Shown: in pieces, positions 6,111-33,280 of the stretch
Numbering within the stretch: the first letter of the stretch is position 1
Layout: the number at the start of each line of letters is the position of its first letter
Source: Pyramidobacter sp. C12-8
GTDB lineage: Bacteria; Synergistota; Synergistia; Synergistales; Dethiosulfovibrionaceae
Reading direction: 5' to 3'
NCBI RefSeq assembly: GCF_002007215.1
Contig: NZ_MUHX01000024.1
Location: 1 to 40,309 of the forward strand
Length of the DNA stretch: 40,309 nucleotides
Position numbers and translations under genes: made by a program
Notes under the pieces: model-generated
Told to the model about the DNA's origin: nothing
The model's input: the letters and a program-made list of their open reading frames with translations, nothing else
The model's database searches: none

Positions 6111-6614
6111 TCAATGTCGGCCGTACCGGGCTTTCAGCAGCGGTTTGATGCCGCCGGCTTCGAGGATCGTCAAAGCGTAATCGCCGACGGGCTCGCAGGG
6201 CAGCTCTTCGCCGCTGGTTTCGTTTTTCAGCAGCGAACGGGACAAGTCGAGCGTGAGTCGGTCGCCGTCCCTGACTTTTTTCGAAACTCCGGGGCAGGCC
6301 ACGAGCGGGATGCCGAGGTTGACGCCGTTGCGGAAGAAGATGCGCGCGAAGGACTCGGCAACGACGGCGCCGACGCCCACGGCCTTGAGGGTGACGGCGG
6401 CATGCTCGCGCGAGGAGCCGCAGCCGAAGTTCGTGCCGGCAACGATCAGGCCGCCGGGCCGGAAGCTGGCCGCAAAATCGGGATCGACGCCGGCCATGGC
6501 GTGGCGCTTCACGTCGTCGGGATTGGTTTCCGAAAGGAAGCGCCCGGGATAGATCTGGTCGGTGTCGATGTTGCTGCCGAAGACGCGGGCGCGGCCGGAA
6601 ATGATTTTTTCCAT
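6111..6614 (-). CDS. Aconitase-superfamily small subunit (LeuD-like; possible mesaconase small subunit)
   Basis: This 167-residue protein is of the LeuD swivel-domain family: GRARVFGSNIDTDQIYPGRF at the start, then the conserved GTNFGCGSSREHA, AVVAESFARIFFRNGVNLG and IPLV. It would pair with the large subunit encoded 14 bases upstream to form an Fe-S hydro-lyase. The ATG at 6614 is preferred over an upstream in-frame start because GCAGGAGGCATCCC precedes it. LeuD-like proteins include isopropylmalate isomerase, homoaconitase, dimethylmalate dehydratase and mesaconase. No leuA or leuB lies here. Its place in one operon with citDEF argues for a citrate- or citramalate-forming enzyme rather than leucine synthesis (inference). 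It is the last gene of the operon. Confidence 0.85.
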   Translation of the reverse strand: MEKIISGRARVFGSNIDTDQIYPGRFLSETNPDDVKRHAMAGVDPDFAASFRPGGLIVAGTNFGCGSSREHAAVTLKAVGVGAVVAESFARIFFRNGVNLGIPLVACPGVSKKVRDGDRLTLDLSRSLLKNETSGEELPCEPVGDYALTILEAGGIKPLLKARYGRH

Positions 6615-6628
6615 GGGATGCCTCCTGC

Positions 6629-7879
6629 TCACAGGAATTCGGCGGGATCGACGATCTCGCCGGCGACCGCCGCGGCCGCTACGGCGGCGGGAGAACCGAG
6701 GTAGATGCGCGCCTCGGCGCTGCCCATGCGGCCGGGAAAGTTGCGGCTCGAAGAGCTGATGCAGTTTTCGCCTCCCGCGAGCATGCCCTCGTGCGTGCCG
6801 AGGCAGGCGGCGCAGCCGGGCGTGACGAACGTGGCGCCGGCTTCGACGAGCGTCTCCATGACGCCGCTTCTGACGGCTTCAAGCAGCACTTTGCGGCTGG
6901 CCGGCACGACGACGAAGCGCGTGCCGCGCGACACTTTCCGCCCCTTGACGACGCGCGCGGCAATTTCCAGATCCTCGAAGCGGCCGCCGGTGCAGGTGCC
7001 GAGGAAAGCCTGCTGGATCTTCACGCCGGCACAGTGCGAAACGGGATGCACGTTGTCGACGCTGTCCGGCTCGGCGATCTGCGGTTCGAACGCGCCGACG
7101 TCGAAACGGTGCACGGCGGAATAACGGTAATCGGAATCGGTCTCATACACCGTGTAGTCGTCGATACCAAGGCGCCTCATGTGCGCGAAGGTGACTTCGT
7201 CCGGCTGGATCCACGCCGTCTTGGCGCCGATCTCGGTGGTCATGTTGCACAGCGTCAGGCGTTCGCACAGCGGCATACGGCGCACGGCCTCGCCGCAGAA
7301 CTCGATCACCTTGTAGACGCCGTAATCCGCTCCCAGCGCGCCGATGACGTGCAGGATCGCGTCCTTGGCGAAGACTCCCTGGCGCGGCTCGCCGTCGAGG
7401 ACGATTTTGACCACTTCGGGCACGCGGAACCACAGCCGCCCGGAGATCAGGATCGCGGCCATGTCGGTGGCGCCGACGCCGGTGCCGAACGCTCCCAGCG
7501 CGCCGTGAGTGGTAGTGTGCGAGTCGGTGATCACCATCAGGCGGCCGGGGCGCGAAAAGCCCTTGTCCACGCAGATCTGGTGGCAGACGCCCTCGTTCAC
7601 GTCCATGAGATTGGCGATGCGCTGCGCCTCGCAGAACTCTCGGAACTGTTTCTGGTTGTCGGCCTGCTGGATCGACGAAGCCGGCGCGTAGTGGTCGAGA
7701 AACATCACCACGTTCTGCGGCGAATGGACGGCGACGCCGCCAATCTCGAAAAACGAGCGCACGGTCTGCAGATACAGATCGTTGATCCCGGCCACGTCGA
7801 CCGTGCAGTTGACGATCTCGCCCGCTGCGACGGACGCGCGTCCGGCGTGGGCGGCGAGGATTTTTTCCGTTGCGTGCAT
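6629..7879 (-). CDS. Aconitase-superfamily large subunit (LeuC-like; possible mesaconase large subunit)
   Basis: This 416-residue LeuC-family large subunit carries the [4Fe-4S] ligands in FLGTCTGGRFEDL and TPGCAACLGTHEG (Cys plus C-x-x-C). Family blocks such as ITDSHTTTHGALGAFGTGVG and SSSRNFPGRMGS are also present. The partner small subunit follows immediately. The enzyme would interconvert a hydroxy-di/tricarboxylate and its unsaturated acid. Specificity cannot be read from sequence alone; mesaconate/(S)-citramalate and cis-aconitate/citrate both suit the citDEF context. The ATG at 7879 has GGGGGGAGATGCTGCA in front and gives the usual family N-terminus; an in-frame start at 7912 is less well placed. 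A gap of 72 bases separates it from citF. Confidence 0.87.
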   Translation of the reverse strand: MHATEKILAAHAGRASVAAGEIVNCTVDVAGINDLYLQTVRSFFEIGGVAVHSPQNVVMFLDHYAPASSIQQADNQKQFREFCEAQRIANLMDVNEGVCHQICVDKGFSRPGRLMVITDSHTTTHGALGAFGTGVGATDMAAILISGRLWFRVPEVVKIVLDGEPRQGVFAKDAILHVIGALGADYGVYKVIEFCGEAVRRMPLCERLTLCNMTTEIGAKTAWIQPDEVTFAHMRRLGIDDYTVYETDSDYRYSAVHRFDVGAFEPQIAEPDSVDNVHPVSHCAGVKIQQAFLGTCTGGRFEDLEIAARVVKGRKVSRGTRFVVVPASRKVLLEAVRSGVMETLVEAGATFVTPGCAACLGTHEGMLAGGENCISSSSRNFPGRMGSAEARIYLGSPAAVAAAAVAGEIVDPAEFL

Positions 7880-7951
7880 TGCAGCATCTCCCCCCTGCGA
7901 TGTCTGTGACAATGCGGGCCGTCCCGGTCAAAAGGATCGCCCCGCGCGAAA

Positions 7952-9361
7952 TTATTTCACGTTCTTGATGCTGTCGATCTGAGTTCCGTCGCGGTATATG
8001 ACCTTCGCCACCTCGCGGGTCCCGCGCGCGGGGCGGTTGGGCACGCCGGTCAGCTTCTCGGCCATGGCTTTGAGGTCGTGGATGTCCACGATCGTGACGC
8101 CCGCTTCGGCCAGACGACCGCGCAGGGCCGCGCGGGCCGGATTGACGGCCACGCCCTTCTGGGTGACGAGCACGTCGACCGTGCGGCCGGGAGTGGAAAT
8201 CGTGGTGACGCGGTCGGTGACGATGGGCAGGCGGGCGCGGATCAGCGGCGCGACGACGATGCACAGTTTCGCCCCGGCGGCGACGTCGCTGTGGCCGCCG
8301 CTGCCGCCCATGATGAAACCGTTGGAATCGGTGTGCACGTTGACGTTGAAGTCGGTGTCGATCTCCGTCGCGCCGAGGATGGCCGCGTCGAGGCTGTCGA
8401 CGCAGCAGGACTTGGACGTAGGCGAGGCGTAGCGCGTCGCCGAAATTTCCACGTGACGCGGATCGTCGCGGATCGAGGCCACGGCGCCGAGGTCGAAGCA
8501 CTGCACGTCCATGATGGAGCGGAAGCAGCCGGCGTTCAGCATATCGACGATGGCGCTGGTGATGCCGCCGAGGGCGTAGCCGCCCTGAATTTTTTCAGCC
8601 AGCATCACGTCTTTGAGGAACGTGGCGGCAGCCAGCGAAGCTCCGCCCGCGCCCGTCTGGAAGGAAAACCCGTCTTTAAGCAGGCCGGAGGCGCGGATCA
8701 CGTCGACGGTAGTGCGCGCCATGGCGAGAGCGACGGGATCGCGGGTGATGCGCGTGGTGCCGGAAACGATGCCCCGCGGATCGCCGATGCTGTCCACGGG
8801 GACGACGCTGTCGACCCACTGCTCCTGGATCAGCGCGTCCTCGAGCGGGTACGGGACAAGGTTGTCGGTGACGACGATCGTATGCCGGGCGCAGCGCGCG
8901 TCGGCTTCGGCGTAGCCGAGGGAGCCGCAGGCGCTTTTGCCACGTTTGCCCGTGGCGTTGCCCATGGGATCGGCCGCGGGCGCGGCCACGAACGCCACGT
9001 CGATCGGCGTGACGCCGTTTTCGATGGCGCTCGGGCGGCCGCCGTGCGATCGGAAGACGACCGGCTCCTTCATGCCGCCCTCGGAGATGAAGCGACCGAC
9101 CTTGGCGCCCATGTAGTTGGTCTCGATGCGGCTGACGAGACCGCTTTTGACGTGATCGATAATGGAGCTCTGCACGTCGAACACGGAGCTGCTGTTGAGC
9201 GTCAGACCGCGGTAGCCCATGGCGGCCAGTTCGGCCAGGACCATGTTCATCACGCCGTCGCCGTTGCGCAGGTGATGATGGAACGAGATCCTCATGCCGT
9301 CTTTCAGCCCGGAGCGGAGGACGGCGTCTTTCAGAGTGGCGACGACTTTGCTGTCTTTCAT
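7952..9361 (-). CDS. citF: Citrate (or citramalate) lyase alpha subunit, CoA-transferase
   Basis: This 469-residue CitF-family protein exchanges the acetyl group on the lyase acyl carrier protein for the incoming hydroxy acid. Characteristic blocks are DGMRISFHHHLRNGDGVMN near the N-terminus, FVAAPAADPMGNATG, TDNLVPYPLED, SFQTGAGGASLAA, and HTDSNGFIMGGSGGHSDVAA near the end. Its ATG overlaps the citE stop by four bases (ATGA), and AGGAGGACGCGAAGA precedes it, so the subunits are translationally coupled. Length is slightly below the enterobacterial protein (about 510). Citramalate lyase of glutamate-fermenting clostridia is homologous, so the true substrate may be citramalate. Confidence 0.93.
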   Translation of the reverse strand: MKDSKVVATLKDAVLRSGLKDGMRISFHHHLRNGDGVMNMVLAELAAMGYRGLTLNSSSVFDVQSSIIDHVKSGLVSRIETNYMGAKVGRFISEGGMKEPVVFRSHGGRPSAIENGVTPIDVAFVAAPAADPMGNATGKRGKSACGSLGYAEADARCARHTIVVTDNLVPYPLEDALIQEQWVDSVVPVDSIGDPRGIVSGTTRITRDPVALAMARTTVDVIRASGLLKDGFSFQTGAGGASLAAATFLKDVMLAEKIQGGYALGGITSAIVDMLNAGCFRSIMDVQCFDLGAVASIRDDPRHVEISATRYASPTSKSCCVDSLDAAILGATEIDTDFNVNVHTDSNGFIMGGSGGHSDVAAGAKLCIVVAPLIRARLPIVTDRVTTISTPGRTVDVLVTQKGVAVNPARAALRGRLAEAGVTIVDIHDLKAMAEKLTGVPNRPARGTREVAKVIYRDGTQIDSIKNVK

Positions 9362-10236
9362 TCTTCGCGTCCTCCTTTGGCGATGGCTTCGGCCATGGCG
9401 ATGGTCTGCTCGGCGCGCGCGACGATCGGCTTGTCGATCATCTTGCCGTACAGCGAGACGGCGCCGCGCCCCTGCTCCTTGGCCTGGCGGATGGCGGCGA
9501 GCACTTCGCGGGCGTAGTCGATCTCCTTCTGTGTCGGGCTGAACGCCTCGTTGACGGCGCGCACGTGGCGCGGCGAGATCACGGCCTTGCCGCTGAATCC
9601 CATGCTGCGCGCGAACCGCGCGTCCCTGGCGGCGCCTTCGTCGTCGTTGACGTCGGTGAACGGCGTGTCGTAGACGTCGATCCCGGCGGCGCGGGCGGCC
9701 GAAACCATGCGGCTGCGCGCGTAGAAGATCTCCGTTCCTTCCTTGGTGCGGGGGCAGCGCAGGTCGGCGGTCAGGTCTTCGGCGCCGAGGAAGATCGCCG
9801 CCACGCGCGGCGAAGCCGAAGCGACGGCGTAGGCGTTTTCCAGCCCGCGCGCCGTCTCGATCAGCGGGATCAGCTTCACGGTCCCGGCGGGAAGTCCGTG
9901 TCGTTTTTCCACTTCGGCCATGTAGGCGTCGAGCGTCGCGACGTCTTCCGCGCCGCCGACTTTGGCGGGCATGATCAAGTCGGGACGCAGCGGCACGATC
10001 TCGTCGAGGTCGGCCTGCCAGTACGGCGTGTCGAGCGAGTTGATGCGCACGGTCAGTTCGACGTTTTCGAAGCCGAGCGCTTCGATGGCGTTGCGCACGA
10101 GGATGCGGGCGGCGTCTTTCTGGTCCGGCGCGACGGCATCCTCGAGGTCGAGGATGACGTTGTCGGCGCCGAGCGCGTCGCCGTTGACGATGATGTTGGG
10201 CGTGTTGCCCGGCAGGAACAGCATGGAACGGCGCAT
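9358..10236 (-). CDS. citE: Citrate (or citramalate) lyase beta subunit, acyl-CoA lyase
   Basis: This 292-residue protein belongs to the HpcH/HpaI-CitE TIM-barrel family. Visible blocks are RRSMLFLPGNTPN, NVILDLEDAVAPDQKD, VRINSLDTPYW, LIMPAKVGG, KLIPLIETARGLENA, IFLGAEDLTADL and GFSGKAVISPRHV. It splits the (citryl or citramalyl) carrier-protein thioester, giving oxaloacetate or pyruvate and leaving acetyl on the carrier. The ATG lies directly after the citD stop codon, and citD's own 3' end supplies GGAGGAGGAAAAGTAA as ribosome site. Length is normal for the family. Confidence 0.94.
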   Translation of the reverse strand: MRRSMLFLPGNTPNIIVNGDALGADNVILDLEDAVAPDQKDAARILVRNAIEALGFENVELTVRINSLDTPYWQADLDEIVPLRPDLIMPAKVGGAEDVATLDAYMAEVEKRHGLPAGTVKLIPLIETARGLENAYAVASASPRVAAIFLGAEDLTADLRCPRTKEGTEIFYARSRMVSAARAAGIDVYDTPFTDVNDDEGAARDARFARSMGFSGKAVISPRHVRAVNEAFSPTQKEIDYAREVLAAIRQAKEQGRGAVSLYGKMIDKPIVARAEQTIAMAEAIAKGGREE

Positions 10237-10506
10237 TTACTTTTCCTCCTCCGCCGCGCGTTTGATCGCGGTCTCCACGCGGGCGCGGATCGTGCAGTCA
10301 AGCGCGCCGCGATCGACGACGCGCAGCGACGCGTTTTCCACCGCGAACTCCTTCAGCACCTCGCGCACGGTCTTCTCGATCGAAGCGCCGAACTGCGCCG
10401 TCACGACCGATTCCAGTTCGACGGCAACGCCGCGCCCCGGTTCGATCTCCACCAGCGCATCGCTCGATTCCAGCGTGCCGGCAACGGCTTTTCTCCTGAT
10501 CTCCAA
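10237..10506 (-). CDS. citD: Citrate (or citramalate) lyase gamma subunit, acyl carrier protein
   Basis: This 89-residue CitD homologue carries AVAGTLESSDALVEIEP at the N-terminus. The Ser in TLESSD corresponds to the residue that bears the phosphoribosyl-dephospho-CoA prosthetic group in known CitD. A TTG start at 10506 is chosen: GGGAGGG lies about 7 bases upstream, and the resulting MEIRRKAVAGTLES aligns with the known CitD N-terminus. An ATG a few bases upstream is in another frame. It is the first gene of the citDEF-leuCD operon. The ligase and prosthetic-group genes (citC, citX, citG) are not in the window and must be elsewhere if the complex is active. Confidence 0.92.
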   Translation of the reverse strand: MEIRRKAVAGTLESSDALVEIEPGRGVAVELESVVTAQFGASIEKTVREVLKEFAVENASLRVVDRGALDCTIRARVETAIKRAAEEEK

Positions 10507-10663
10507 ACGGCATCCCTCCCTGTCAAAAAAACGAAGCGGCCCTTCTTCAGCGCCGACGGATCATCCGAATCGTTTTTATTCTAGCACGGGCGCTCCGTCT
10601 GTAAACGATGTTTTTCGTCAGTCGTTGAGAAACAAAAATACGGCATTTCCGAAGAGTTTCGTG

Positions 10664-10669
10664 TATAAT
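10664..10669 (+). promoter_or_regulatory. -10 element for the malic enzyme operon
   Basis: A perfect TATAAT lies 65 bases upstream of the malic enzyme ribosome site, inside the 227-base divergent region shared with citD. No good -35 is seen 16-18 bases upstream, so an activator may be needed. The divergent layout suggests shared control. Confidence 0.45.
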
Positions 10670-10733
10670 AGAAAAAATTATAACGTTTTGTTTACAGCAG
10701 TCTATGCTCCACATTCAAAAGGAGGAGTTCTCA

Positions 10734-12012: not shown

Positions 12013-13311
12013 ATGTCTGAAGAAAGCAAAAGCCTCAGGCTGTTCAACATGCCCTGGCAGATCTTCGCCGTCTTCGCGGCCATCGTCCTTGTGGCGACGT
12101 ATATGGGCGTGCTGCCCAAAGGCATGATCGGCGCCTTTCCGTTCATGATCGTCGTCGGCGCCGTTCTCAACGAGATCGGCAACCGTTGCCCGATCGTCAA
12201 CACCTACCTCGGCGGCGGCGCCATCGTCATCATTTTCGGCATGGCGACACTCTGTTATTATCATCTCATTCCCGACGCGACCGTCAAGATCGTCACGAAC
12301 TTCATGAAAGGCGAAGGCTTCCTCGACTTCTACATCGCCGCGCTGATCTGCGGCTCGATCCTCGGCATGAACCGCGATCTGCTGATCCGCGCCGCGATCC
12401 GCTATCTGCCCGCCATCGTCGGCGGCGTCGCCGTAGCGATCGGCCTGGCCGGGCTGGTCGGCGAACTGACCGGTTACGGCGCCAAGCAGGCCATCCTTTA
12501 CATCGCCGTGCCGATCATGGGCGGCGGCATGGGCGCCGGCGCGGTGCCGCTGTCGAAGATCTTCGGCGAGACGCTGGCGCAGAAACCCGAAGACATCATC
12601 AACATCATGATCCCCGCCGTCGCCCTCGGCAACGCCATGGCCATCGTCGCCGGCGGGCTGCTCAGCAAACTCGGCAAGTCGTTCCCCTGCCTCACCGGCA
12701 ACGGCGATCTGCTCATCACCAAGGGCGCCGACGACGCCATTCAAGCCGACGAAGAATTTCTCAAAAAGCGCGATGCCATCAGCCTGACGGTCATGGGCGT
12801 CGGCCTGCTGCTGGCGACGGCATTCTTCGCCTGGGGACGCATCGTCGCGTTCTTCATTCCCAAGATCCACAGCTACGCCTGGATGATCATCTCCGTCGCC
12901 GTCGTCAAGGCGCTGGGGATTCTTCCCCAGTATTACGAGATCTGCTGCTACCAGTGGTTCCAGTTCGTCATGAAGAACCTCACGGCCGTCCTGCTCGCCG
13001 GCATCGGCGTGGCTTACACCGACCTCGGCCAGATCATTTCCGCCTTCTCCGGCCAGTACCTGTTGCTCGTCGGCGTGACGGTGTTCGGTGCCATCATCGG
13101 TTCAGGCCTCGTCGGTCGCCTCGTCGGCTTTTATCCCGTTGAGTCGGCCATCACCGCCGGGCTCTGCATGGCCAATATGGGCGGCACGGGCGACGTGGCC
13201 GTCCTTTCCGCGGCCCATCGCATGGAACTGATGCCCTTCGCGCAGATCTCCTCCCGCATCGGCGGCGCCTTCATGCTGATCCTCGCCAGCGTGCTGCTGC
13301 AGATCATTTAA
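12013..13311 (+). CDS. 2-hydroxycarboxylate transporter (CitS/CimH family)
   Basis: This 432-residue polytopic membrane protein is of the 2HCT family, sodium- or proton-coupled carriers of citrate, malate and related hydroxy acids. The family's glycine-rich loop motifs are visible as PIMGGGMGAGAVPLS mid-protein and CMANMGGTGDVAVLSAAHRM near the C-terminus, where the substrate-binding Arg equivalent is expected. About eleven hydrophobic segments are seen. It begins MSEESKSLRLFNMPW; GAGGAGGAATTCCACAA precedes the ATG. With malic enzyme just upstream and citDEF divergent, it is the probable substrate entry point; citrate, malate or citramalate cannot be distinguished. Confidence 0.92.
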   Translation: MSEESKSLRLFNMPWQIFAVFAAIVLVATYMGVLPKGMIGAFPFMIVVGAVLNEIGNRCPIVNTYLGGGAIVIIFGMATLCYYHLIPDATVKIVTNFMKGEGFLDFYIAALICGSILGMNRDLLIRAAIRYLPAIVGGVAVAIGLAGLVGELTGYGAKQAILYIAVPIMGGGMGAGAVPLSKIFGETLAQKPEDIINIMIPAVALGNAMAIVAGGLLSKLGKSFPCLTGNGDLLITKGADDAIQADEEFLKKRDAISLTVMGVGLLLATAFFAWGRIVAFFIPKIHSYAWMIISVAVVKALGILPQYYEICCYQWFQFVMKNLTAVLLAGIGVAYTDLGQIISAFSGQYLLLVGVTVFGAIIGSGLVGRLVGFYPVESAITAGLCMANMGGTGDVAVLSAAHRMELMPFAQISSRIGGAFMLILASVLLQII

Positions 13312-13569: not shown

Positions 13570-15513
13570 TCAGACCGAGGCGTTCGGACTCGTTCTGCCC
13601 CTAGTCGCCAGCCAAAGGAGAACGAGGGCCGCCAGGCCCACCGCGTCGCTCAGAGTGCCGGGATAAAGCAGAGCCAGGGAGCCGACCAGCGCCAGAAGGC
13701 GTTCATACCAGCGCAGCGGCGCCATGAAAAAGTTCTCGGTGAAGCAGGACAGCAGGAACACGCCCACTACGGCGGAAATCATCGCCTGGAACGTGACGAA
13801 CCAGTTCGTGACGTTGGTCAGCAGGATCTCGGGAGCCAGCACGAAGATGAACGGCACGATAAAACCCGGCAGAGCCAGCTTGACGCCGGTAAAAGCCGTC
13901 CGGTTGGGATCGGCGTTGGCCAGGCCGGCAGCCGTGTAGGCGCCCACGCAGACCGGCGGCGTCACCGACGAGAGGACGGCGTAAAAAAACACGAACATAT
14001 GCGCGTCCAAACCTCTTACGCCGAGCAGAGTCAAGGCGGGGGCCGCCACAGCGCTGGCCATGACGTAGCTCGCCGTCGTCGGCATGCCCATGCCGAGCAG
14101 CGTCGCGATCAGCAGCGTCACGCACATGGTCAGGACCAAATGTCCCCGCGTCAGCGCCAGCACGGCATCGCCGATGCGCAGGGCCACGCCCGTGGCGCCC
14201 ATCATGCCGATGACGTTGCCGACGATGATGCAGGCCATGGCGACCGAAAGGGCGCCCAGCGAACCGTCTTTCAGCGTGTTGACGAACGTCGTCAGGTCCA
14301 TGCGGTCGGATTTCTTCACGAAGCTCAGCAGCACGCAGCAGCCGATGCCCCAGCAGCCGGAATAGAGCGGATTGTACCCCTTGACCAGGAAGTAGACGAT
14401 CACGAACAGAGGGATCGCTTTGTAGCCGCTCTTGACCAGGACTTCTCCGGCCCGGGGGAGCGTCTCCTTCGGCAGCCCTTTCAGGCCGAGGCGCGAAGCC
14501 TCGAGGCTGAGCGAACACCAGATGCCCCAGAAGTACAGCAGAGCGGGAACGATCGCGCAGAGCAGAACCTGAGTGTAGGGAATGTTCAGCGTATCGGCGA
14601 TGATGAACGCTGCGGCTCCCATGACGGGAGGCATGATCTGCCCGCCGGTGGAGGCGGCCGCTTCGACGGCGCCGGCAAAGTGCGGTTCGTAGCCGATGCT
14701 TTTCATCAGAGGGATCGTGAAGGCGCCCGTCGTCGCCACGTTGGCCGACGTGCTGCCGCTGATCGTGCCCATCAGAGCGCTGGAGAGCACGGAGATCTTG
14801 GCGGGGCCGCCCTTCAGATGCCCTGTCAAGGCCATGGAAATGTCGTTGAAGAAATCCGACGTCTTCGTGGACGTCAAAAAGGCGCCGAAGAGCACGAACA
14901 GGTAAATGTACGTGGCCGAAACGCCCGTCACCAAACCGAAGAGGCCGTCCGTCGTCAGATAGAGCTCTTCGATGATGCGCGGGACCGACAGGCCGAAGTG
15001 TTGAATGGGGCCGGGCATCGAGCGCCCGAAGTAGGCAAACAGCAAAAACAGGAAGCAGAAGATCGGCAGCGGCCAGCCAAGCACGCGCCGCCCAGCGATA
15101 AACACCAGCGCGGTGAAGACGCCGCCAAGCCAGAGCTCGTAGCTGTAAACTTCACCGGCGCGAGTGGCGATGCTTTCATACGCGAAGAACACGTAAAGAG
15201 CGCAGGCGCCCGACGCGATCGCAAAGATCCAGTCAAGAGCCGTGGCGCGGTCGCGCGGCGATCTTTTCGCGGCCGGGTAAAGCAGGAAAATCATGGGAAG
15301 AATGAAAGCGACGTGAAAACTGCGCTGCTGCATCGTCGGCAGCACGCCGAAAAAGGCGGTGTAAAGCTGAAAGACCGCCAACGCGACGGCCAGGACCGTG
15401 ATCAGCGTACCCATCGCTCCCGTGAAGGTACGGCGTTTGCCCGTTTTTTTCTGAAGCTGCCGAGCCTGAACGTTGGCGTCGGCAACGCTCTGGGCTGAAA
15501 TGCGCGTCGTCAT
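13570..15513 (-). CDS. TRAP transporter fused permease (DctQM fusion), TAXI type
   Basis: This 647-residue membrane protein fuses the small (4-helix) and large (12-helix) TRAP subunits. It has N-terminal hydrophobic segments and then the large-subunit signatures GTISGSTSANVATTGAFTIP, EAAASTGGQIMPPVMGAAAF, GMGMPTTASYV and TPPVCVGAYTAAGLA. Together with the binding protein encoded just upstream it would import an organic or amino acid with sodium; the substrate is unknown. The ATG at 15513 is preferred over an in-frame upstream start because GACGAGGGGGATTTTTCTCG precedes it. A terminator-like hairpin separates the two genes and may lower permease expression relative to the binding protein. Confidence 0.93.
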   Translation of the reverse strand: MTTRISAQSVADANVQARQLQKKTGKRRTFTGAMGTLITVLAVALAVFQLYTAFFGVLPTMQQRSFHVAFILPMIFLLYPAAKRSPRDRATALDWIFAIASGACALYVFFAYESIATRAGEVYSYELWLGGVFTALVFIAGRRVLGWPLPIFCFLFLLFAYFGRSMPGPIQHFGLSVPRIIEELYLTTDGLFGLVTGVSATYIYLFVLFGAFLTSTKTSDFFNDISMALTGHLKGGPAKISVLSSALMGTISGSTSANVATTGAFTIPLMKSIGYEPHFAGAVEAAASTGGQIMPPVMGAAAFIIADTLNIPYTQVLLCAIVPALLYFWGIWCSLSLEASRLGLKGLPKETLPRAGEVLVKSGYKAIPLFVIVYFLVKGYNPLYSGCWGIGCCVLLSFVKKSDRMDLTTFVNTLKDGSLGALSVAMACIIVGNVIGMMGATGVALRIGDAVLALTRGHLVLTMCVTLLIATLLGMGMPTTASYVMASAVAAPALTLLGVRGLDAHMFVFFYAVLSSVTPPVCVGAYTAAGLANADPNRTAFTGVKLALPGFIVPFIFVLAPEILLTNVTNWFVTFQAMISAVVGVFLLSCFTENFFMAPLRWYERLLALVGSLALLYPGTLSDAVGLAALVLLWLATRGRTSPNASV

Positions 15514-15570
15514 CGAGAAAAATCCCCCTCGTCTCAAAAACACATATTTTATAAAAGGCCAAGGACCGTG

Positions 15571-15603
15571 CAAAAACAGGGAGAGCCGGCAGGACTCTCC
15601 CTG
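15571..15603 (-). terminator. Internal terminator/attenuator between TAXI binding protein and permease
   Basis: On the minus strand CAGGGAGAG pairs with CTCTCCCTG (15577-15603) around a short loop, followed by TTTTTG. It lies after the TAXI gene and before the permease start, a usual place for partial termination. Confidence 0.75.
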
Positions 15604-15628
15604 TTCGATTTTCGCCGCGAGATCGTCT

Positions 15629-16576
15629 TTACTTAATCAGACCGATCTCCTTGTAATACTTGAGCGCGCCGGGATGGATCTCCATGGCGCAGCCGTCGAG
15701 GGCATGCTCGCGGCCGAAGTTGGAGAAATACGCGGGAAGACGCTTTTTCAACTCCTCCTGCCCCTCGAACATGGCCTTGACCGTCTTGTACACGACGTCC
15801 TCGCTCACTTTTTCGTCGGACAGCAGCACGCCAATGGCCGCGATCGTGTTGACGTCGTCGGGATGCTTGTCGTAAGTGCCGCCGGGGATGGTCGCAAGAG
15901 CAAAATAAGGATGCTCCTTGACGATCTGCTGACGCTTGTCCTCGTCGATGGACAAAAGGCGCACGCCGCCGGTGATCATGTCGGTGACCTGAGCGTTGGG
16001 CGCGGTCGTGGTCCAAAAGTTGCCCTGAACCTCGCCGGTCTTCAGGGCTTCGGCGCTCTCGGTCTTGCCGTAACGGTTGATCGTCACGTCTTCGTCCTTG
16101 ATGCCGTAGGCGTTCAGAATAATGCGGCTATACGTCTCGATCCCCTGCCCGATGGCGCCGTAATCGATGCGTTTGCCGCGGAAATCGGCGACGCTCTTCA
16201 TGTCTTCGCCGCTGACCAGGACATGACACGGCATCGGATAGATGGCGGCGACGAAACGGATGCTCTTCACGGGCGCCTTGAAGGGGCCGGAGCCGTTCAA
16301 AGCCTCGTCGACCGTGGCGGACTGACACATGCCGAACTCCATATCGCCTTTCGCCAAGCCGTTGACGTTCTTTGTGGAACCGCCGGTCACCGCCGTATAG
16401 TTGACGCCGTTCTTGGCCGCGTTGCCGATCTGGGCAATCGTGTTGCCGATCAGATAGAATCCGCCGCCTACGCTGCTCGTACCGATGCGGGCGAAGTCAA
16501 CCGCAAAACCGGCCGCTGCCGTCATTCCCAAGAACGCTGCTGCCGCGCAAACGCTTTTCACTGTCTTACGAATCAT
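15629..16576 (-). CDS. TRAP transporter solute-binding protein, TAXI family
   Basis: This 315-residue exported protein has signal peptide MIRKTVKSVCAAAAFLGM with cleavage near AAAGFA-VDF. TAXI-family features follow: ARIGTSSVGGGFYLIGNTIA, TAVTGGSTKNVNGLAKGDME, FRGKRIDYGAIGQGIETYSR and IHPGALKYYKEIGLI at the C-terminus. It would capture the substrate in the periplasm for the fused permease. The start at 16576 follows GAGGAGGCAGCAGTT. A consensus promoter lies about 90-120 bases upstream, and the divergent IclR gene is the likely regulator. Confidence 0.93.
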   Translation of the reverse strand: MIRKTVKSVCAAAAFLGMTAAAGFAVDFARIGTSSVGGGFYLIGNTIAQIGNAAKNGVNYTAVTGGSTKNVNGLAKGDMEFGMCQSATVDEALNGSGPFKAPVKSIRFVAAIYPMPCHVLVSGEDMKSVADFRGKRIDYGAIGQGIETYSRIILNAYGIKDEDVTINRYGKTESAEALKTGEVQGNFWTTTAPNAQVTDMITGGVRLLSIDEDKRQQIVKEHPYFALATIPGGTYDKHPDDVNTIAAIGVLLSDEKVSEDVVYKTVKAMFEGQEELKKRLPAYFSNFGREHALDGCAMEIHPGALKYYKEIGLIK

Positions 16577-16669
16577 AACTGCTGCCTCCTCCTCAATGTT
16601 CTGACATTTTCTTAAGCAAACGAGCACTGCATTTTACATGATGAAAGCAACTTTTACTAAGCGAACCCA

Positions 16670-16698
16670 ATTATGAAACACCTTTTCCCCTTTGTCAA
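16670..16698 (-). promoter_or_regulatory. sigma70 promoter of the TAXI-TRAP operon
   Basis: On the minus strand TTGACA (16698-16693), exactly 17 bases, then CATAAT (16675-16670). The predicted transcription start is about 85 bases upstream of the TAXI start codon. The region is AT-rich and repeats TTATGAAA at 16671 and 16739, possible regulator contacts. Confidence 0.7.
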
Positions 16699-16821
16699 TG
16701 AGCAAATAATGTTTCTTTGTTACACACTGACTTCCATATTATGAAATAAAATGATAAAATTTTTGTAGCGCCAGTGAGTTCTTGAGAGTCTAGACTTTCA
16801 CTCAAAAAACGAGGGGGAAAA

Positions 16822-17610
16822 ATGTCTGCAAAATCAGTCAACGGAGTTTCATCGATAAGAAAATGTCTGTCAGTGCTCGACTGCTTTTCCGAGGATGCCC
16901 CACAGCTCTCGCTGACCGCCGTCACGAAAAAAACCGGTTTTTCCATGCCCACCACGCTGCGAGTTCTTGCGGCGCTGTGCGAGGAAGGCTTTCTTGAGCG
17001 CGACGCCAATCGTCTCTACCGCGTGAGCTGGAAGGCCTACCGCCTGGGCAAACTCTTTCAGGCGCACGACTCCATCAAAAATGCCGTGCTGCCGGTCATG
17101 CGGCGGCTGCGCGACGTATTCGGCGAAACGGTCAGTCTCTATTACAAACATGACATCTGGCGCGTCTGCGTCGAACAAGCGGTCAGCCTTCACGAGCTGA
17201 AGCGCATTTCTCATCCCGGCTCCTACTATCCGCTCTGGGCCGGCGCCACCGCAAAGATCTTTCTCGGCTTCATGACGTCCGACGAGATTCGACGCGTGTA
17301 CGCGGAGGCTCCGCAGGATCGGAAGGAACGCTGGGCTCAGTTCCTCGGCGAAGTCGCCGAGGCGCGGCAGCGTGGTTACGCCGTCAGTCTGGCCGAACGC
17401 GAGGAAGGCACGTCGTCCATCGCCTGCCCGCTCTTCGACTTTATGGGCAAGCTGACGGCCTGCCTGTGTATCTCCGGCCCCAGCTTCCGTTTCACCGACG
17501 AGATCAAGGCGAAAGCAGCTCCCGTTATCGTCAGGGAATGCCGTGAACTTTCCCGTTCCTTCGGCGCGCCCGATTCGGCCTTCGGGACGCGCTCCCAAGC
17601 CCGGGGCTGA
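16822..17610 (+). CDS. IclR-family transcriptional regulator
   Basis: This 262-residue protein has an N-terminal winged helix (about 5-70: SIRKCLSVLDCF, LTAVTKKTGFSMPTTLRVL, LCEEGFLERD) and a C-terminal IclR effector domain (HPGSYYPLWAGATAKIFL, EVAEARQRGYAVSLAEREEGTSSIACPLFD). It sits divergent from the TAXI-TRAP operon with 245 bases between, the standard arrangement for a local regulator, so the transported compound or its metabolite is the likely effector. The start follows ACGAGGGGGAAAA. A strong bidirectional terminator lies after the stop. Confidence 0.92.
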   Translation: MSAKSVNGVSSIRKCLSVLDCFSEDAPQLSLTAVTKKTGFSMPTTLRVLAALCEEGFLERDANRLYRVSWKAYRLGKLFQAHDSIKNAVLPVMRRLRDVFGETVSLYYKHDIWRVCVEQAVSLHELKRISHPGSYYPLWAGATAKIFLGFMTSDEIRRVYAEAPQDRKERWAQFLGEVAEARQRGYAVSLAEREEGTSSIACPLFDFMGKLTACLCISGPSFRFTDEIKAKAAPVIVRECRELSRSFGAPDSAFGTRSQARG

Positions 17611-21706: not shown

Positions 21707-23401
21707 ATGTTTTTCTCCGTTCTTCTCGTCCTTCTGACGCTGGGCGCGTTGCTGGCGTCCGCCTCCGCGGCGCGGGGCTGCACGACCATGGGAGCGGGAC
21801 GCCAAGCCACCGCCGACGGTTCGGTGCTGGTCACTCACAGCTGCGACGGCTGGTACGACCAGCGCCTTCGCGTGATCCGCGGCGGCGACCACGCGCCCGG
21901 CGAGACGGTCGACATTTACAACGTCATGTGCCACGCCAACCACCCCGCCGAGCCGCTGCGCAAAGTCGGACAGGTGCCTCAGGCGGCGCGCACGTACACC
22001 TACTTCCAGATCGCCTACCCGTTCATGAATGAACGTCAGGTCATCATCGGCGAGTTCACCTGGACGGGCCGGCCAGAGCTGGCGTCGCCGCAGGGCATCT
22101 TCTACATCGAAAATCTCGAGGCGCTGGCGCTGGCCCGCTGCGCCACCGCGCGCGACGCCGTGCGCCTGATGGGACAGTTCGCCGAACAATACGGCTACGC
22201 CGACGGCGGCGAAACGCTGGTCGTCGGCGACCCCAACGAAGCCTGGGTCTTCGAGATCGTCGGCGCCGGAACGGACTGGGAGCCGGGTTGCGGACGTCCC
22301 GGCGCGCACTGGGCGGCGCGGCGCATCCCCGACGACGGCTTTTTCGTGGGCGCCAACCGCTCGCGCCTCGGCGTCATCGAACTGGCCGAGAGCGACGCGC
22401 TCATGCTCGGCTCGGAGCTGACCGCGTACCCGGAAAAACAGGGCTGGTGGAAGCGGGGCGAGCCGTTCGACTTCTCCGGGATCTTCAATCCCGAACCGTA
22501 CGGCTACGCCTTTTACGCCTCGCGCCGCGAGTGGCGCGCGCTGAACCTCGTCGCGCCGTCGCAGCAGTTCCCCGTCGTCACCTGCCGCGAAGCCTATCCG
22601 TTCAGCGTCGTTCCCGACAAGAAGCTGACCGTGCGGGATCTGATGGACGTTTACAGCGACCATCTCGAAGGCACCGAATACGACCTCACCAAGGGGCTGG
22701 CGGCCGGCCCCTTCGGCTGCCCCGTGCGCTGGTTCACGCCCGCCGCGAGCCGTCCCGAAGGGCGCAAAACCGACGACTGGGAGCGCTCCATCGCCATCTA
22801 CCGCTGCGCGTACAGTTTCGTGGCGCAGTGCCGCGGCTGGCTGCCCGATCCCGTGGGCGGCGTGCTGTGGTTCGGGCTGGGTTCTCCCGATACGACCGTC
22901 TACGTGCCGGTCTACTGCGGCGCGCTGGACGTACCCGCGCCGTGGAGCGAGGGCAAGAGCCACGTCTTCGACCGCGGCTGCGCCTGGTGGGCGTTTACGC
23001 TGGTCAACAACTGGGCCTGTCTGAGATGGGACGCCATGTACAGGGACATCCGCGCCCGCCGCGCCCGGTACGAAGAGCGTTTCTTCGCCGCGCAGACGGG
23101 TTTCGAGAACGAGATCGCCGACCTCTGCTCCCGCGGCCGCGAAGAAGAAGCCGCCCGGCGCGTTACCGAACACACCTGCGCGCAGATGGACGAGCTGTGC
23201 GAGGGGTGGTGGAGCTTCGCCTTCGAGCTGATCGGAAAGTACCACGACGGCGGCGTGATGACGCCTCAGGGCGCGATGACGACGCCCGGCTATCCTGCCG
23301 AGTGGCTGGAACGGGTCGATTTCGGCGCGACGTCGGAACGCGACCTGAAAAAACTGGGCGGCCAAAAGCTCAGCGGCTCGTTCTCGGGCATTTCGCTGTA
23401 A
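21707..23401 (+). CDS. Exported C69-family dipeptidase, paralogue 1
   Basis: This 564-residue protein belongs to peptidase family C69 (PepD-like N-terminal nucleophile hydrolases). A signal peptide (MFFSVLLVLLTLGALLASASA) ends close to Cys25 in RGCTTMGAGRQATADGS, the family's catalytic N-terminal cysteine. Further blocks shared with the paralogues here are TYTYFQIAYPFMNE, GANRSRLGVIE and DLTKGLAAGPFGCP. It should cleave dipeptides in the periplasm or outside. AAGGAGGTTTTTCGCG precedes the ATG, and a TATAAT (21657-21662) lies about 45 bases upstream. A bidirectional terminator and then the minus-strand two-component system follow, so it is a single-gene transcript. DNA similarity to paralogue 2 is high. 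Confidence 0.9.
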   Translation: MFFSVLLVLLTLGALLASASAARGCTTMGAGRQATADGSVLVTHSCDGWYDQRLRVIRGGDHAPGETVDIYNVMCHANHPAEPLRKVGQVPQAARTYTYFQIAYPFMNERQVIIGEFTWTGRPELASPQGIFYIENLEALALARCATARDAVRLMGQFAEQYGYADGGETLVVGDPNEAWVFEIVGAGTDWEPGCGRPGAHWAARRIPDDGFFVGANRSRLGVIELAESDALMLGSELTAYPEKQGWWKRGEPFDFSGIFNPEPYGYAFYASRREWRALNLVAPSQQFPVVTCREAYPFSVVPDKKLTVRDLMDVYSDHLEGTEYDLTKGLAAGPFGCPVRWFTPAASRPEGRKTDDWERSIAIYRCAYSFVAQCRGWLPDPVGGVLWFGLGSPDTTVYVPVYCGALDVPAPWSEGKSHVFDRGCAWWAFTLVNNWACLRWDAMYRDIRARRARYEERFFAAQTGFENEIADLCSRGREEEAARRVTEHTCAQMDELCEGWWSFAFELIGKYHDGGVMTPQGAMTTPGYPAEWLERVDFGATSERDLKKLGGQKLSGSFSGISL

Positions 23402-23422
23402 AGAAACAAGACAAGACGACAC

Positions 23423-23478
23423 AATGGGGGGAGGGCGAGCAGCCGGATAAAATCCAGCCGTTCGCCCTCCCCCATTTT
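23423..23478. terminator. Bidirectional terminator between dipeptidase 1 and the response regulator
   Basis: AATGGGGGGAGGGCGA pairs with TCGCCCTCCCCCATT with a one-base bulge. The T run CATTTTCG follows on the plus side; on the minus side the hairpin is followed by TTGTGTCG, which is weak. Confidence 0.7.
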
Positions 23479-23549
23479 CGACGGAAAACGCCTGATTTCT
23501 TTTTCTCGTCGTCGCGCCGTCCCGGCATCTTTCGGGATCCAACACGGAA

Positions 23550-23565
23550 TGTTCCACGTGGAACA
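23550..23565. other. parS site 2
   Basis: Exact TGTTCCACGTGGAACA palindrome in the gap between the dipeptidase 1 terminator and the response-regulator stop codon. It lies 10,119 bases from site 1. Confidence 0.88.
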
Positions 23566-23623
23566 TCAAAAATCGGGAAATGAGACAAAAAACTTTCGCG
23601 TCACGGCGACGTCACCGCGATTT

Positions 23624-24310
23624 TCATTTCCTCAGCGCGTAACGGTTCGTGGGACGGCCGACTTTCTGATATTCCAGCTCCAGCGTCGCCTCGCCGGCGG
23701 CGACCAGATATTCCAGATAGCGGCGCGCCGTGATGCGCGAGATCTTGAGGGCCTGCGCCGTCTCAACGGAAGACAGCGGCGAGGCGGCGTGCCCGAGGAG
23801 GTTCTTCACCTGCTGCAGCGTCTGCGGGTTCAGCCCCTTGGGCAGATCGTTGGCGGCCGTATCCTTCTGCTGGACTTGAAGCAGTTTGTCCAGCTCCTTC
23901 TGATCGATCTGGTCGGCGCCGCGGTTGAGACGGTTTTCCAGCTGCTGGAACGAACGCAGCGACGTCTGGATGCGCTCGAAGACGAAGGGCTTGATCACGT
24001 AATCGAAAGCCCCCGCCTTGAGCACGGCGTTGATCGTGTTGGTGTCGCGCGACGCCGACACAACGATGACGCCGACGGTACGGTTCATCTCGCGGATCCT
24101 CTGCAGCGTGGCCACGCCGTCCATGCCCGGCAAAAAGACGTCCAGGATCACGAGGCGGACGGGATGCCGCTGCAAAAACTCCAGCGCGTCCTTGCCGCTG
24201 GAGACCACTCCCGCGACGATAAATCCCGGGACGGCGCCGATAAACTGGCGATGGATCGCCGCCACCATCGGATCGTCTTCGACAATGAGCACATCAATAG
24301 CTTCCGGCAT
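23624..24310 (-). CDS. Response regulator of the CitB/DcuR (DpiA) type
   Basis: This 228-residue protein has a receiver domain (residues 5-120) with acidic pocket EDDP and phospho-acceptor Asp57 in VILDVFLPGMDG, the switch Ser in VVSASRD and Lys in YVIKPF. A linker is followed by a C-terminal helix-turn-helix (about 165-215: SVETAQALKISRITARRYLEYL). This architecture is that of CitB/DcuR regulators that control uptake and fermentation of carboxylates. Its start overlaps the sensor gene by 17 bases, and CAGGAGGAGCTCTCTG precedes it. Target genes are unknown; the flanking dipeptidases or the citDEF locus are candidates. Confidence 0.93.
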   Translation of the reverse strand: MPEAIDVLIVEDDPMVAAIHRQFIGAVPGFIVAGVVSSGKDALEFLQRHPVRLVILDVFLPGMDGVATLQRIREMNRTVGVIVVSASRDTNTINAVLKAGAFDYVIKPFVFERIQTSLRSFQQLENRLNRGADQIDQKELDKLLQVQQKDTAANDLPKGLNPQTLQQVKNLLGHAASPLSSVETAQALKISRITARRYLEYLVAAGEATLELEYQKVGRPTNRYALRK

Positions 24311-26303
24311 CAGAGAGCTCCTCCTGTTTCTTCGGAAGAGGGATCGTCACGGTGAAATCCGTGTACTCCCCCTCCGCAAAATCCACTGAAATGTCGCCGC
24401 CAAGCGACGTTACGATATTGCTGATCGTATAAAGTCCAAAGCCCGAAGGGCGGCCTCTTTTCTTGGTGCTGAACCCCTTGTCGAAAAGCCGTTCCGCGAT
24501 GCGGGCGTTCATCAGCCCGGCGTTGTCGCGCACGCTCAGGAAGATGTAGCCCGATTCGTCGTACATGGAAAAACGGATCTCGGAACGTTCGTCGACGCCC
24601 TTTTCCTGAAGCGCTTCCACCGCGTTCTGCATCAGATTGCCGACGACGATCACCAGCGACCGCTCGCTGATCTCGGCGCTGTGATCGGCGCAGGAGCTGT
24701 CGGCTTCGAGAACAAAATTGATGCCCTGCTCGCGGCACAGTCCGGCTTTGCCCATCAGCACGCCGCAGACGGCGGCGTTTTTGATCCGCTCCGTCATGAA
24801 CGAATGCGCCGACTGGCTCGAATCGGTCTCCGCGGCGATGTAGGCCACCGCCTTGTCGTACTGTCCCAGCTGGATCAGGCCGGAAATGGCCTGGAGCGTG
24901 TTCATGAACTCGTGATTGTGGATGCGCAGCGACTCCACGTACATCTTCACGCCCGTCATCTCCTCCGCCATGGCCTGCAGCTCGGAAAGGTCGCGCAGCG
25001 TGACGATGGCGCCGTAGCAGCGGCCGCTGATAAACACCGGCACTTTGTTGCACGACACCAGCGCCTCGCGCAGGTTCTGCTCGAGATTGTACACGGGCTG
25101 ACAGTCGTCGATCACCCTGCGGATGTCGAGCCCGGGGATCAGTTCGTCGGCGATCTTGCCGACGTCGCTGTCCTTCAGGTCCAGCAGCAGCTTGGCGATG
25201 CGGTTCAGCATCGTGATCCGCCCCGCGGGATCGACGGCCAGGATCCCGTCGCAGACGAAATCGAGGATCCGGTCGCGCTCGTTGGAAGCGATGCGGATCT
25301 TTCGCTTCAGTTCGTGGTTCCAGAAGAGGATCGCGCCGACGAACAACAAAACGACACAGCCCGCCTGCACGAGAATCCGCGGACTGAGCAGGAATTCATC
25401 GTATTGCCCCAGCCATTTGTTCATCACGGCGTTATAGCGCCCGTCGAGCTTCATTTCCGCCAGCGCATGTCCGATCTTGAGCGTCATCGCCACGTCGCCG
25501 TGCAGCACCACCAGACCGCGCTCGTAGGATTGCAGCGGCAGCTTGCGCGCGTCGATGGCATAGCGGTAACGCCGCGTCTGCTCCAGCTGATAGCGCCCCT
25601 GAAACGTCTCGCAGACAAAGGCGTCGCACATGCCCGCCGCCAGGATGCGCAGCCCGTCGGCTGCGGACGGACAGTGCATGATCTCTTTTTTGAAGCCCAG
25701 ATTCGTCAAAAATTTTTCTTCCGGCGCGCCGGCAACGACGCAGATCCTTTTTCCGCGCAGCTCGTTCAGCCCGTCGGTCCGTCCGCTCGGCAGGAATACG
25801 GTCGACGATTCCCACAGGAACGGCAGGGCGAAGCACAGCGAATCCCGCTCCGCCTCGGGAAAGCCCTCGAGGATCCGCGCCACGTTCTCGGCCATGCCGG
25901 GATCGATCGGGTCGAGATTGCGCACGGCAAGATACCCGAATCGTTCCTGCTCGGGATCGACCGGGTAGAGCGAACCGAGCACGATCTCCGGCTGGATCTG
26001 GTACATGGAGTTTCTCACGTCCCCCGCGCCGCGCGGCGAAAGGAGAAAGCGCATCTTCTCCTTCTGAGCGATCAGCTCGAGCAGATCGACGTACACGCCC
26101 CGCATTGTGCCGCGAGAGTCGATCTGAAGATACGGAGGCTGCGTCTCCATACAGAGCACGCGTATTGTCCGCCCTTCGCCCGCGCCGATCACCATGTCGG
26201 GCACCGCTTCAACCCCAGCGGCGGTTTTTCCGCTCCACAGGATCTGCATCAGACAAAAGAGCGGCAGAGTCGTTCGCAACACCGCACGGAAAATTCTCGT
26301 CAT
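24294..26303 (-). CDS. CitA/DcuS-type sensor kinase with periplasmic solute-binding domain
   Basis: This sensor has 669 residues from the ATG at 26303 (an in-frame start at 26342 is also possible; ribosome sites are weak for both). After a signal-like segment, residues about 45-300 look like a family-3 amino-acid-binding domain: IRVLCMETQPPYLQ, GVYVDLLELIAQKE, LRGKRICVVAGAPEEKFL and a final MNKWLGQYDEF. One membrane helix (about 311-328) and a PAS-like domain (FVCDGILAVDPAGRITMLN) follow. The DcuS/CitA-type H-box is HNHEFMNTLQAISGLIQLGQ (His464), with N-box NLMQNAVEAL and G-boxes DNAGLM and GFGLYTI. DcuS and CitA normally sense through a PDC/Cache domain, so the binding-protein sensor is unusual; an amino acid or peptide ligand is inferred. 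Confidence 0.88.
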   Translation of the reverse strand: MTRIFRAVLRTTLPLFCLMQILWSGKTAAGVEAVPDMVIGAGEGRTIRVLCMETQPPYLQIDSRGTMRGVYVDLLELIAQKEKMRFLLSPRGAGDVRNSMYQIQPEIVLGSLYPVDPEQERFGYLAVRNLDPIDPGMAENVARILEGFPEAERDSLCFALPFLWESSTVFLPSGRTDGLNELRGKRICVVAGAPEEKFLTNLGFKKEIMHCPSAADGLRILAAGMCDAFVCETFQGRYQLEQTRRYRYAIDARKLPLQSYERGLVVLHGDVAMTLKIGHALAEMKLDGRYNAVMNKWLGQYDEFLLSPRILVQAGCVVLLFVGAILFWNHELKRKIRIASNERDRILDFVCDGILAVDPAGRITMLNRIAKLLLDLKDSDVGKIADELIPGLDIRRVIDDCQPVYNLEQNLREALVSCNKVPVFISGRCYGAIVTLRDLSELQAMAEEMTGVKMYVESLRIHNHEFMNTLQAISGLIQLGQYDKAVAYIAAETDSSQSAHSFMTERIKNAAVCGVLMGKAGLCREQGINFVLEADSSCADHSAEISERSLVIVVGNLMQNAVEALQEKGVDERSEIRFSMYDESGYIFLSVRDNAGLMNARIAERLFDKGFSTKKRGRPSGFGLYTISNIVTSLGGDISVDFAEGEYTDFTVTIPLPKKQEELSDAGSY

Positions 26304-26931
26304 CTCAGCACCGTCACTCGTTCGGATGATCGATATTGTCATCTTGCGAATCCGCGCAAAAAGACAAAGATCTTGTTTGTTAATAATAACACATACCGAA
26401 TAAAAAGAGGAGCCTTATGCAAAATGGGGTCAAACATCAGAGAGTAAAGAAGGCGATGCCGTTCGGCAAAAGCAATGAATTCGGATTTCTCCATGGAATC
26501 ACAACGACGTCCGCAGCGTCGACGGTGTTTCTCGTAGCTTTTCTGGGTTTCAGCTTTGCATCTTGTTTTGTCCCCTTGTACAACCTCGTTTGATCTCATC
26601 GCGCACCGCGTTGGGGACGCAGTTGAGCTCTTTGACTCTTTGAATGACCGACCACCCGTCTTTGGGACGTCCCTAAATTGGTATCCGGCCAGCGTAAGTC
26701 AGATGTTTTCCCTTTCGGCGTCCTTCTGTGGTAGAATTGCCTCACAGCAGCATCCTCCGTGGCGGTGTCGATTGGCGCTTATTTAGGGGGCTTGTTTTAC
26801 TTCTTACCCTCCCAGATGTTCAACTTCACTTTGCAATGAGCCATCACGAGTATCCGTGTGGTGTAGATTCAGGACAAAGCCGGCCGCGCTGCTGAGTCGC
26901 CGGTGCGATCATGGAACGGAGCGTGAAAAGC
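26304..26931. other. 628-base intergenic region, AT-rich leader and decayed DNA
   Basis: No gene is supported. The left part (26340-26420) is AT-rich and would hold the sensor-kinase promoter. A minus-strand open frame (26339-26599) gives a basic product without recognisable motif and no good ribosome site. GGGACGTCCC, a perfect palindrome, lies at 26664-26673. The remainder looks like degenerate non-coding DNA. Confidence 0.4.
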
Positions 26932-27297
26932 ATGAATCTTTTTCTCTGTTACGACAGATGCAGCACATGCAAAAAAGCCGAACAGTGGCTGAAAGACAAC
27001 GGCGTCTCCTACGAAAAGCGCCCTATCGTGGACGCTCGCCCCACGGTCGCCGAACTGCGCGCGTGGCACGAAAAAAGCGGTCTGCCTGTGCGGCGCTTTT
27101 TCAACACAAGCGGAATACTCTACCGTTCGCTGAACGTCAAGGACCGCCTGCCCGGCATGTCCGACGAGGAAGCGTATGAGCTTCTGGCCACAGACGGGAT
27201 GCTCGTCAAGCGTCCTCTGCTGGTTACGCCTGAAGCCGTGCTGCCCGGTTTCAAAGAAGCGGACTGGGCCAAGGCCCTGAAAAAACAGCGCCTGTGA
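26932..27297 (+). CDS. ArsC/Spx-family (YffB-like) thioredoxin-fold protein
   Basis: This 121-residue protein begins MNLFLCYDRCSTCKKAEQWL, with the C-x-x-C of the Spx/MgsR branch (Cys10, Cys13). It continues with VSYEKRPIVDARPTVAELRAW, FFNTSGILYRSLNVKDRL and TDGMLVKRPLLVTPEAVLPGF. The last contains the K-R-P-(L/I) signature of the ArsC family. The role may be a thiol reductase or RNA-polymerase-binding stress factor; no ars genes are nearby, so arsenate reduction is less likely. The start at 26932 matches the family's N-terminus (an ATG at 26911 is in frame). The repeat hairpin at 27321 follows and probably terminates it. Confidence 0.85.
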   Translation: MNLFLCYDRCSTCKKAEQWLKDNGVSYEKRPIVDARPTVAELRAWHEKSGLPVRRFFNTSGILYRSLNVKDRLPGMSDEEAYELLATDGMLVKRPLLVTPEAVLPGFKEADWAKALKKQRL

Positions 27298-27320
27298 AAA
27301 ACGCGCATCGCGTCAATCAT

Positions 27321-27464
27321 GAGGCCGTCTCAAAAGTCAATTGAGGCGGCCTCTTTGCTATATCTTTGATGAGCTCTATGCAGTGCTACAGCACTGCATA
27401 GAAGCGGAACGAAGCGGTATCATGTATCTTGAAAGACAGTTCTGTAGTTTTGGGACAGCTTCTC
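27321..27464. repeat. MITE-like intergenic repeat, copy B (uninterrupted)
   Basis: Left hairpin GAGGCCGTCTCAA (27321-27333) pairs with TTGAGGCGGCCTC (27341-27353), followed by TTTGCTAT. An internal perfect palindrome CTATGCAGTGCT-ac-AGCACTGCATAG lies at 27376-27401. GTCTCAAAA (27327-27335) is inverted near the right end as TTTTGGGAC (27448-27456, one mismatch), then AGCTTCT as in copy A. It directly follows the ArsC/Spx-like gene and can act as its terminator. Confidence 0.7.
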
Positions 27465-29443: not shown

Positions 29444-29468
29444 TTTTTTCGCTTCCGCACCAGCGTTA

Positions 29469-29520: not shown

Positions 29521-29575
29521 GTCTCGTGAAACGGAGAATCCGAACGTCTGACCCATCATAAGGAGGTAAAGGACC

Positions 29576-31841: not shown

Positions 31842-31845
31842 GGCA

Positions 31846-33274: not shown

Positions 33275-33280
33275 TCGATC

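Follow-up and report, generated by a model that had tools for sequence, protein, structure and literature searches.

The stretch of DNA analyzed here (hereafter the window; 40,309 bases, 59.5% GC) belongs to contig C105 of the 2.67-Mb genome, 99.3% complete, of Pyramidobacter sp. C12-8. It contains five intact minus-strand genes running in one direction, in the order citD–citE–citF–LeuC-like–LeuD-like, which encode the three subunits of a citrate-lyase-type enzyme (CitDEF) and a two-subunit hydro-lyase of the aconitase superfamily (LeuCD). A malic enzyme gene (malE) and a gene for a transporter of the 2-hydroxycarboxylate (2HCT) family diverge from them (Table 1). An earlier reading made from the letters and open reading frames alone (the sequence-only reading) had already described this five-gene operon and the divergent transporter, and both are borne out by intact genes and profile matches. 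That reading also noted the lack of leuA, leuB, citC, citX and citG, which holds for the operon, though a citC (contig C40) and an open reading frame (ORF) containing citX (contig C106) sit elsewhere in the genome. Three other genomes from the genus also have the block, with about 88–100% identity per gene. We propose, with moderate confidence, that it forms a module for breaking down C4/C5 hydroxy-dicarboxylates, organized around an (S)-citramalate lyase. The module would ferment (S)-citramalate and L-malate from the surroundings, and LeuCD would probably supply citramalate; here and below, every substrate and flux direction is a prediction.

Table 1. Features of the citDEF–leuCD block and its divergent neighbors (positions in the window)
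Feature	Position	Strand	Remarks
citD-type acyl carrier subunit (gamma)	10237..10506	-	TTG start, conserved ESSD serine region; NCBIfam citD 111.6 bits > 63.5
CitE-type lyase (beta) subunit	9358..10236	-	citramalate-lyase clade; Met89, not citrate-lyase Arg
CitF-type transferase (alpha) subunit	7952..9361	-	NCBIfam equivalog 575 > 501 bits; 60-69% identical to glutamate-mutase-linked homologues
LeuC-like large subunit, aconitase-superfamily hydro-lyase, CTGGR subfamily	6629..7879	-	
LeuD-like small subunit	6111..6614	-	specificity loop DTDQIYPGRFLSE, without homoaconitase Arg
malic enzyme, 392 aa	10734..11912	+	divergent; found with module in other lineages too
2HCT-family transporter	12013..13311	+	Met/Met/Thr at CitS 186/402/405, malate-type site
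shared intergenic region between divergent units	10507..10733	.	promoter-like matches toward citD, consensus matches only

The preferred starts of the hydro-lyase genes, based on homology and Shine–Dalgarno sequences, are ATG 7879 (LeuC) and ATG 6614 (LeuD), and citE and citF overlap by 4 bp. Automatic annotation would label the operon citrate lyase plus leucine biosynthesis. Several lines of evidence place the lyase elsewhere. A CitF scan of 85,000 named genomes returned relatives that are 55–69% identical and nearly all from Clostridia. The glutamate mutase gene glmE lies beside the cit genes in 48 of 81 loci, including that of Peptoclostridium acidaminophilum, and in 44 of these 48 the gene for methylaspartate ammonia-lyase (MAL) is present too. 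Because glmE and MAL adjoin them, the glmE-linked lyases can be regarded as citramalate lyases by context (compare PMC4682846), and it is they that are closest to the window CitDEF (60–72% identity). In a tree built from CitE and CitF, the window lyase falls inside a 30-row clade (SH-aLRT 99) that leaves out the citrate lyases of Klebsiella, Streptococcus and Secundilactobacillus as well as a second lyase of the same genome, encoded on contig C100; within the clade, the window and its genus mates group with two glmE-linked Christensenella loci, L087 and L100 (SH-aLRT 89). The CitE score of 311 bits, below the NCBIfam citE cut-off of 443, is not discriminating by itself, since other CitE proteins, including the C100 copy (364 bits), miss the cut-off as well.

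Position 89 of CitE follows the same division: it is Met in the window and in 15 of 15 glmE-linked proteins, but Arg in 7 of 7 citrate lyases and in a third lyase of the genome, on contig C71. Met is likewise found at this position in human CLYBL, which is a citramalyl-CoA lyase (alignment with 5vxc). This residue may read the extra carboxylate of the substrate, and it is a candidate for separating citramalate lyases from citrate lyases in genomes. Both further CitDEF sets of the genome carry Arg89; the C100 set lies beside a TctA permease, and the C71 set has as neighbors genes for a PrpF-like isomerase, for several members of the MmgE/PrpD family and for a second LeuCD, 40% identical to the window LeuC (loci L067 and L189). 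A role in citrate metabolism therefore does not need the window copy. The suggestion of the sequence-only reading that CitDEF is a citramalate lyase is thus supported as to enzyme type by the tree, the gene neighborhoods and Met89, with citramalate as the predicted substrate.

The transporter points in the same direction. Residues N186, R402 and S405 of the citrate carrier KpCitS are replaced by Met, Met and Thr in the window protein and in all module-linked homologues tested, while R428, Q424 and Y348 are kept. The malate-only carrier MleP has Met at KpCitS positions 186 and 402, and the 3-carboxylate of citrate reportedly clashes with a Met at position 186 (PMC5451387), which together make citrate an unlikely substrate. 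The likeness to LlMleP extends to the Thr at S405, but the window protein retains Tyr348 (Leu in MleP and CitP) and is overall nearer to an uncharacterized 2HCT group. It is likely to carry (S)-malate and (S)-citramalate. Regulators of the DcuR/DpiA-like family lie directly upstream of malE–2HCT in BM714 and of the 2HCT gene in Ilyobacter (loci L163 and L183). About 10 kb from the module, the window itself encodes on the minus strand (23624–26342) a sensor kinase of the DcuS/MalK type, whose N-terminal part is SBP-like, and a DcuR/DpiA-like response regulator.

Together, these observations bear on the use of citrate or cis-aconitate, which the sequence-only reading had offered as its alternative. 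LeuCD would then be an aconitase, CitDEF a citrate lyase, the 2HCT protein a citrate carrier and the malic enzyme a CitM-like oxaloacetate decarboxylase. The gene names suit this scheme, as does the CitP/CitM-like combination found in lactic acid bacteria, and a malic-enzyme-like gene does lie beside citCDEFXG in Secundilactobacillus. The block indeed shares CitDEF, a 2HCT-family carrier and (for lactic acid bacteria, citP/citM) a malic-enzyme-like gene with citrate fermentation operons such as Klebsiella citS–citCDEFG, but its lyase has Met89 and belongs to another clade, the citrate contacts of the transporter, N186 and R402 among them, are lost, and LeuCD is added. In addition, the LeuD loop reads GRFLSE and has no counterpart of the Arg in the homoaconitase loop GPYLRT, which argues against tricarboxylates. 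With two Arg89 sets elsewhere in the genome, one of them next to a TctA permease, we regard citrate or cis-aconitate use as quite improbable.

If the lyase is of the citramalate type, where would citramalate come from? The sequence-only reading matched the operon to the citramalate lyase–mesaconase pair of the methylaspartate pathway and advised looking for glutamate mutase and methylaspartate ammonia-lyase elsewhere in the genome. Neither glmE nor MAL was found there. Of 151 genomes from the phylum, just 2 carry glmE; the same model gives real matches in other genomes. Nor is the clostridial mesaconase LeuCD-like, as had been supposed: it is a class I fumarase, assigned by Kronen and Berg (PMC4682846). 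The alpha subunit of this fumarase is present in 32 of the 48 glmE-linked loci (a lower bound, as one distant query was used); in 27 of these, L087 and L100 included, it immediately follows citF. LeuC is present in none of the 48. A search of the Pyramidobacter genome for class I fumarase (TIGR00722) gave no match, while five controls matched; the window LeuCD belongs to the aconitase superfamily and is thus not a mesaconase of the known type. The lyase type and a plausible feeding hydro-lyase survive from the original proposal, but glutamate fermentation via methylaspartate with LeuCD as its mesaconase is extremely improbable, the kinship of the window lyase with those of methylaspartate clusters notwithstanding. 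Compared with the citramalate lyase (EC 4.1.3.22) of that pathway in C. tetanomorphum and in the P. acidaminophilum cluster, the window enzyme has the same three-subunit organization, clade and Met89, but its genome is devoid of glutamate mutase and methylaspartase, its partner is LeuCD instead of class I fumarase, and malE and the 2HCT gene are linked to it.

Gene order suggests what LeuCD does. The order is citE–citF–fumA–fumB–glmS–mutL–glmE–MAL in L087 and L100 and citD–citE–citF–leuC–leuD in the window; LeuCD therefore fills the mesaconase slot behind citF. Because it takes the place of class I fumarase in the closest relatives, a hydro-lyase feeding the lyase is plausible. The proposed step and the slot would be those of the mesaconase MesAB/FumD (class I fumarase family; PMC4682846), but the protein family is unrelated. 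Membership of the aconitase superfamily is clear, as the three Fe–S cysteines and the motifs GTCTGGR, GCAAC, TDSHTTTHG and RNFPGR are kept. Both subunits match broad subfamily models only (LeuC-like 517.6 > 385 bits, LeuD-like 177.9 > 109), and no isopropylmalate isomerase (IPMI), homoaconitase or aconitase equivalog model was passed (for IPMI, LEU2 410 < 611 and leuC 245 < 560 bits). The window LeuC falls in a separate subfamily (clade support 99), with CTGGR replacing CTNGR (35 of the 41 LeuC sequences compared). No close relative turned up in the plasmid collection (best 44%). In a genus member (G142; locus L075, contig C5, 4.3 kb), CitF is 84% identical to that of the window but LeuCD only 51–61%. 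This LeuCD is closer to the Acidaminococcus type, as would be expected after an exchange.

The closest solved structures for both subunits are those of the M. jannaschii isopropylmalate/citramalate isomerase (4NQY/4KP1, 3VBA), which shares the Fe–S cysteines and acts on citramalate-type acids, and E. coli LeuCD is reported to convert citramalate into citraconate (PMC6561320). One might thus see in the window LeuCD a biosynthetic isopropylmalate/citramalate isomerase (for leucine or isoleucine) standing behind citDEF by chance. However, the window enzyme differs from that of M. jannaschii by its CTGGR motif, its small-subunit loop, its catabolic neighborhood and an operon without leuA or leuB; the IPMI equivalogs are missed; a search of the genome for LeuA or citramalate synthase (CimA) gave nothing over the cut-off (best 42 bits); and in unrelated lineages the gene pair is found together with genes for transport and catabolism. 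A biosynthetic role is hence very improbable. We tentatively suggest instead that the CTGGR LeuCD may be a new aconitase-superfamily mesaconase, or an enzyme converting citraconate or 3-methylmalate to (S)-citramalate, and that it may have taken the place of class I fumarase in a module that ferments C5 dicarboxylates without glutamate mutase. Itaconate was also considered as a substrate and rejected on mechanism, as its hydration would require protonation of the methylene carbon.

Several points weigh against these assignments. Enzymes of the aconitase/IPMI type act on cis (maleate-like) acids and form (R)-citramalate, but a citrate-lyase-type lyase should be (S)-specific; since aconitase geometry fits (R)-citramalate and cis acids, LeuCD as a mesaconase would be unusual and would need altered binding, for which the changed CTGGR motif leaves room. 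The proposed route does not account for the origin of mesaconate. Among 21 carriers of the window lyase type, those without glmE have CTGGR LeuC more often, but the anti-correlation is weak (Fisher P = 0.046 with the Pyramidobacter genome, 0.11 without), and several carriers have neither glmE nor CTGGR LeuC. The sister grouping with L087 and L100 is supported at 89, not 95. Finally, the same LeuC subfamily occurs in other genomes of the phylum beside malate racemase, malic enzyme and TctABC, a setting that points to the formation of malate instead.

This last observation is the basis of the main rival explanation, in which LeuCD is a maleate-hydratase-like or malate-forming enzyme serving the malic enzyme, while the lyase handles imported citramalate, the two being co-regulated but not catalyzing consecutive steps. 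It is favored by the arrangement leuC–leuD–TctCBA–malate racemase (579 bits > 500)–malic enzyme in G019, where LeuC is of the same subfamily, by leuCD–larA in G186 and by 2HCT–leuC–leuD–malE without lyase in G195. Yet the window has no racemase for the conversion of D-malate to L-malate, and LeuCD lies within the lyase operon, not with malE, and occupies the mesaconase slot of the sister loci, so that we consider a malate-side LeuCD unlikely. The G019 operon itself (locus L077, 2131–9618; racemase LarAH6) looks like a route from an unsaturated C4 acid through D-malate and L-malate to pyruvate with a CTGGR LeuCD.

Parts of the module recur in other lineages in different assortments, which supports functional coupling. 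The Christensenella metagenome-assembled genome (MAG) UBA1385 has all five parts in another order, on one strand, as malE–2HCT–leuC–leuD–AEC permease–(198-aa ORF)–citD–citE–citF; its lyase lies in another subclade of the CitE and CitF tree, and its LeuC pairs with that of the window (support 81). Elsewhere, we found the G195 arrangement mentioned above, separate from the lyase of that genome, malE–2HCT–citC–citDEF in BM714, and 2HCT–citDEF followed by malE in an Acidaminococcus MAG. A Synergistaceae MAG without glmE combines a two-subunit class I fumarase/tartrate-dehydratase pair with citDEF, a TRAP transporter, malE and malate racemase. A literature search, limited to open-licence papers, found no described citDEF–leuCD operon.

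In the citramalate-centered scheme that we favor, the 2HCT transporter would import non-citrate (S)-2-hydroxy acids, of which (S)-malate and (S)-citramalate are the likeliest; CitDEF, activated by the CitC and CitX encoded elsewhere in the genome, would split (S)-citramalate into acetate and pyruvate; the malic enzyme would convert malate to pyruvate; and LeuCD would form (S)-citramalate out of a C5 acid that is unsaturated or isomeric, with mesaconate as the first candidate and citraconate or 3-methylmalate as the next, as a non-homologous replacement of the class I fumarase-type mesaconase of the related clostridial methylaspartate clusters. If true, anaerobes of the gut and rumen that form no mesaconate themselves would have a route for using citramalate, mesaconate or related C5 acids, part of which glutamate fermenters might release. 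The CTGGR LeuC subfamily is defined by sequence and hence directly testable for activity.

Two other gene sets were considered and set aside. An isocitrate dehydrogenase-linked LeuCD–citDEF operon (locus L069, 4136–11872, in G010) is a different module with an Arg89 lyase: besides citDEF it comprises two pairs of LeuCD genes and one gene of the isocitrate/homoisocitrate-dehydrogenase-like kind, is seen in other genomes of the phylum and could run from 2-oxoglutarate to acetate and oxaloacetate; the C71 lyase is the sister of the L069 lyase. Downstream of the 2HCT gene, the window (13570–17610) encodes a TRAP fused permease and a TAXI binding protein (minus strand) and an IclR-family regulator (plus strand). 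These were rejected as parts of the module, as they lie away from it in two genus mates (G046 and G069); a TRAP/TAXI pair adjoins citDEF in L150 (Acidaminococcaceae). Further on (21707–36332), four related proteins of about 530–610 aa resemble C69-type dipeptidases, and the genes interspersed among theirs look like transporter and peptidase genes, these families being assigned by appearance.

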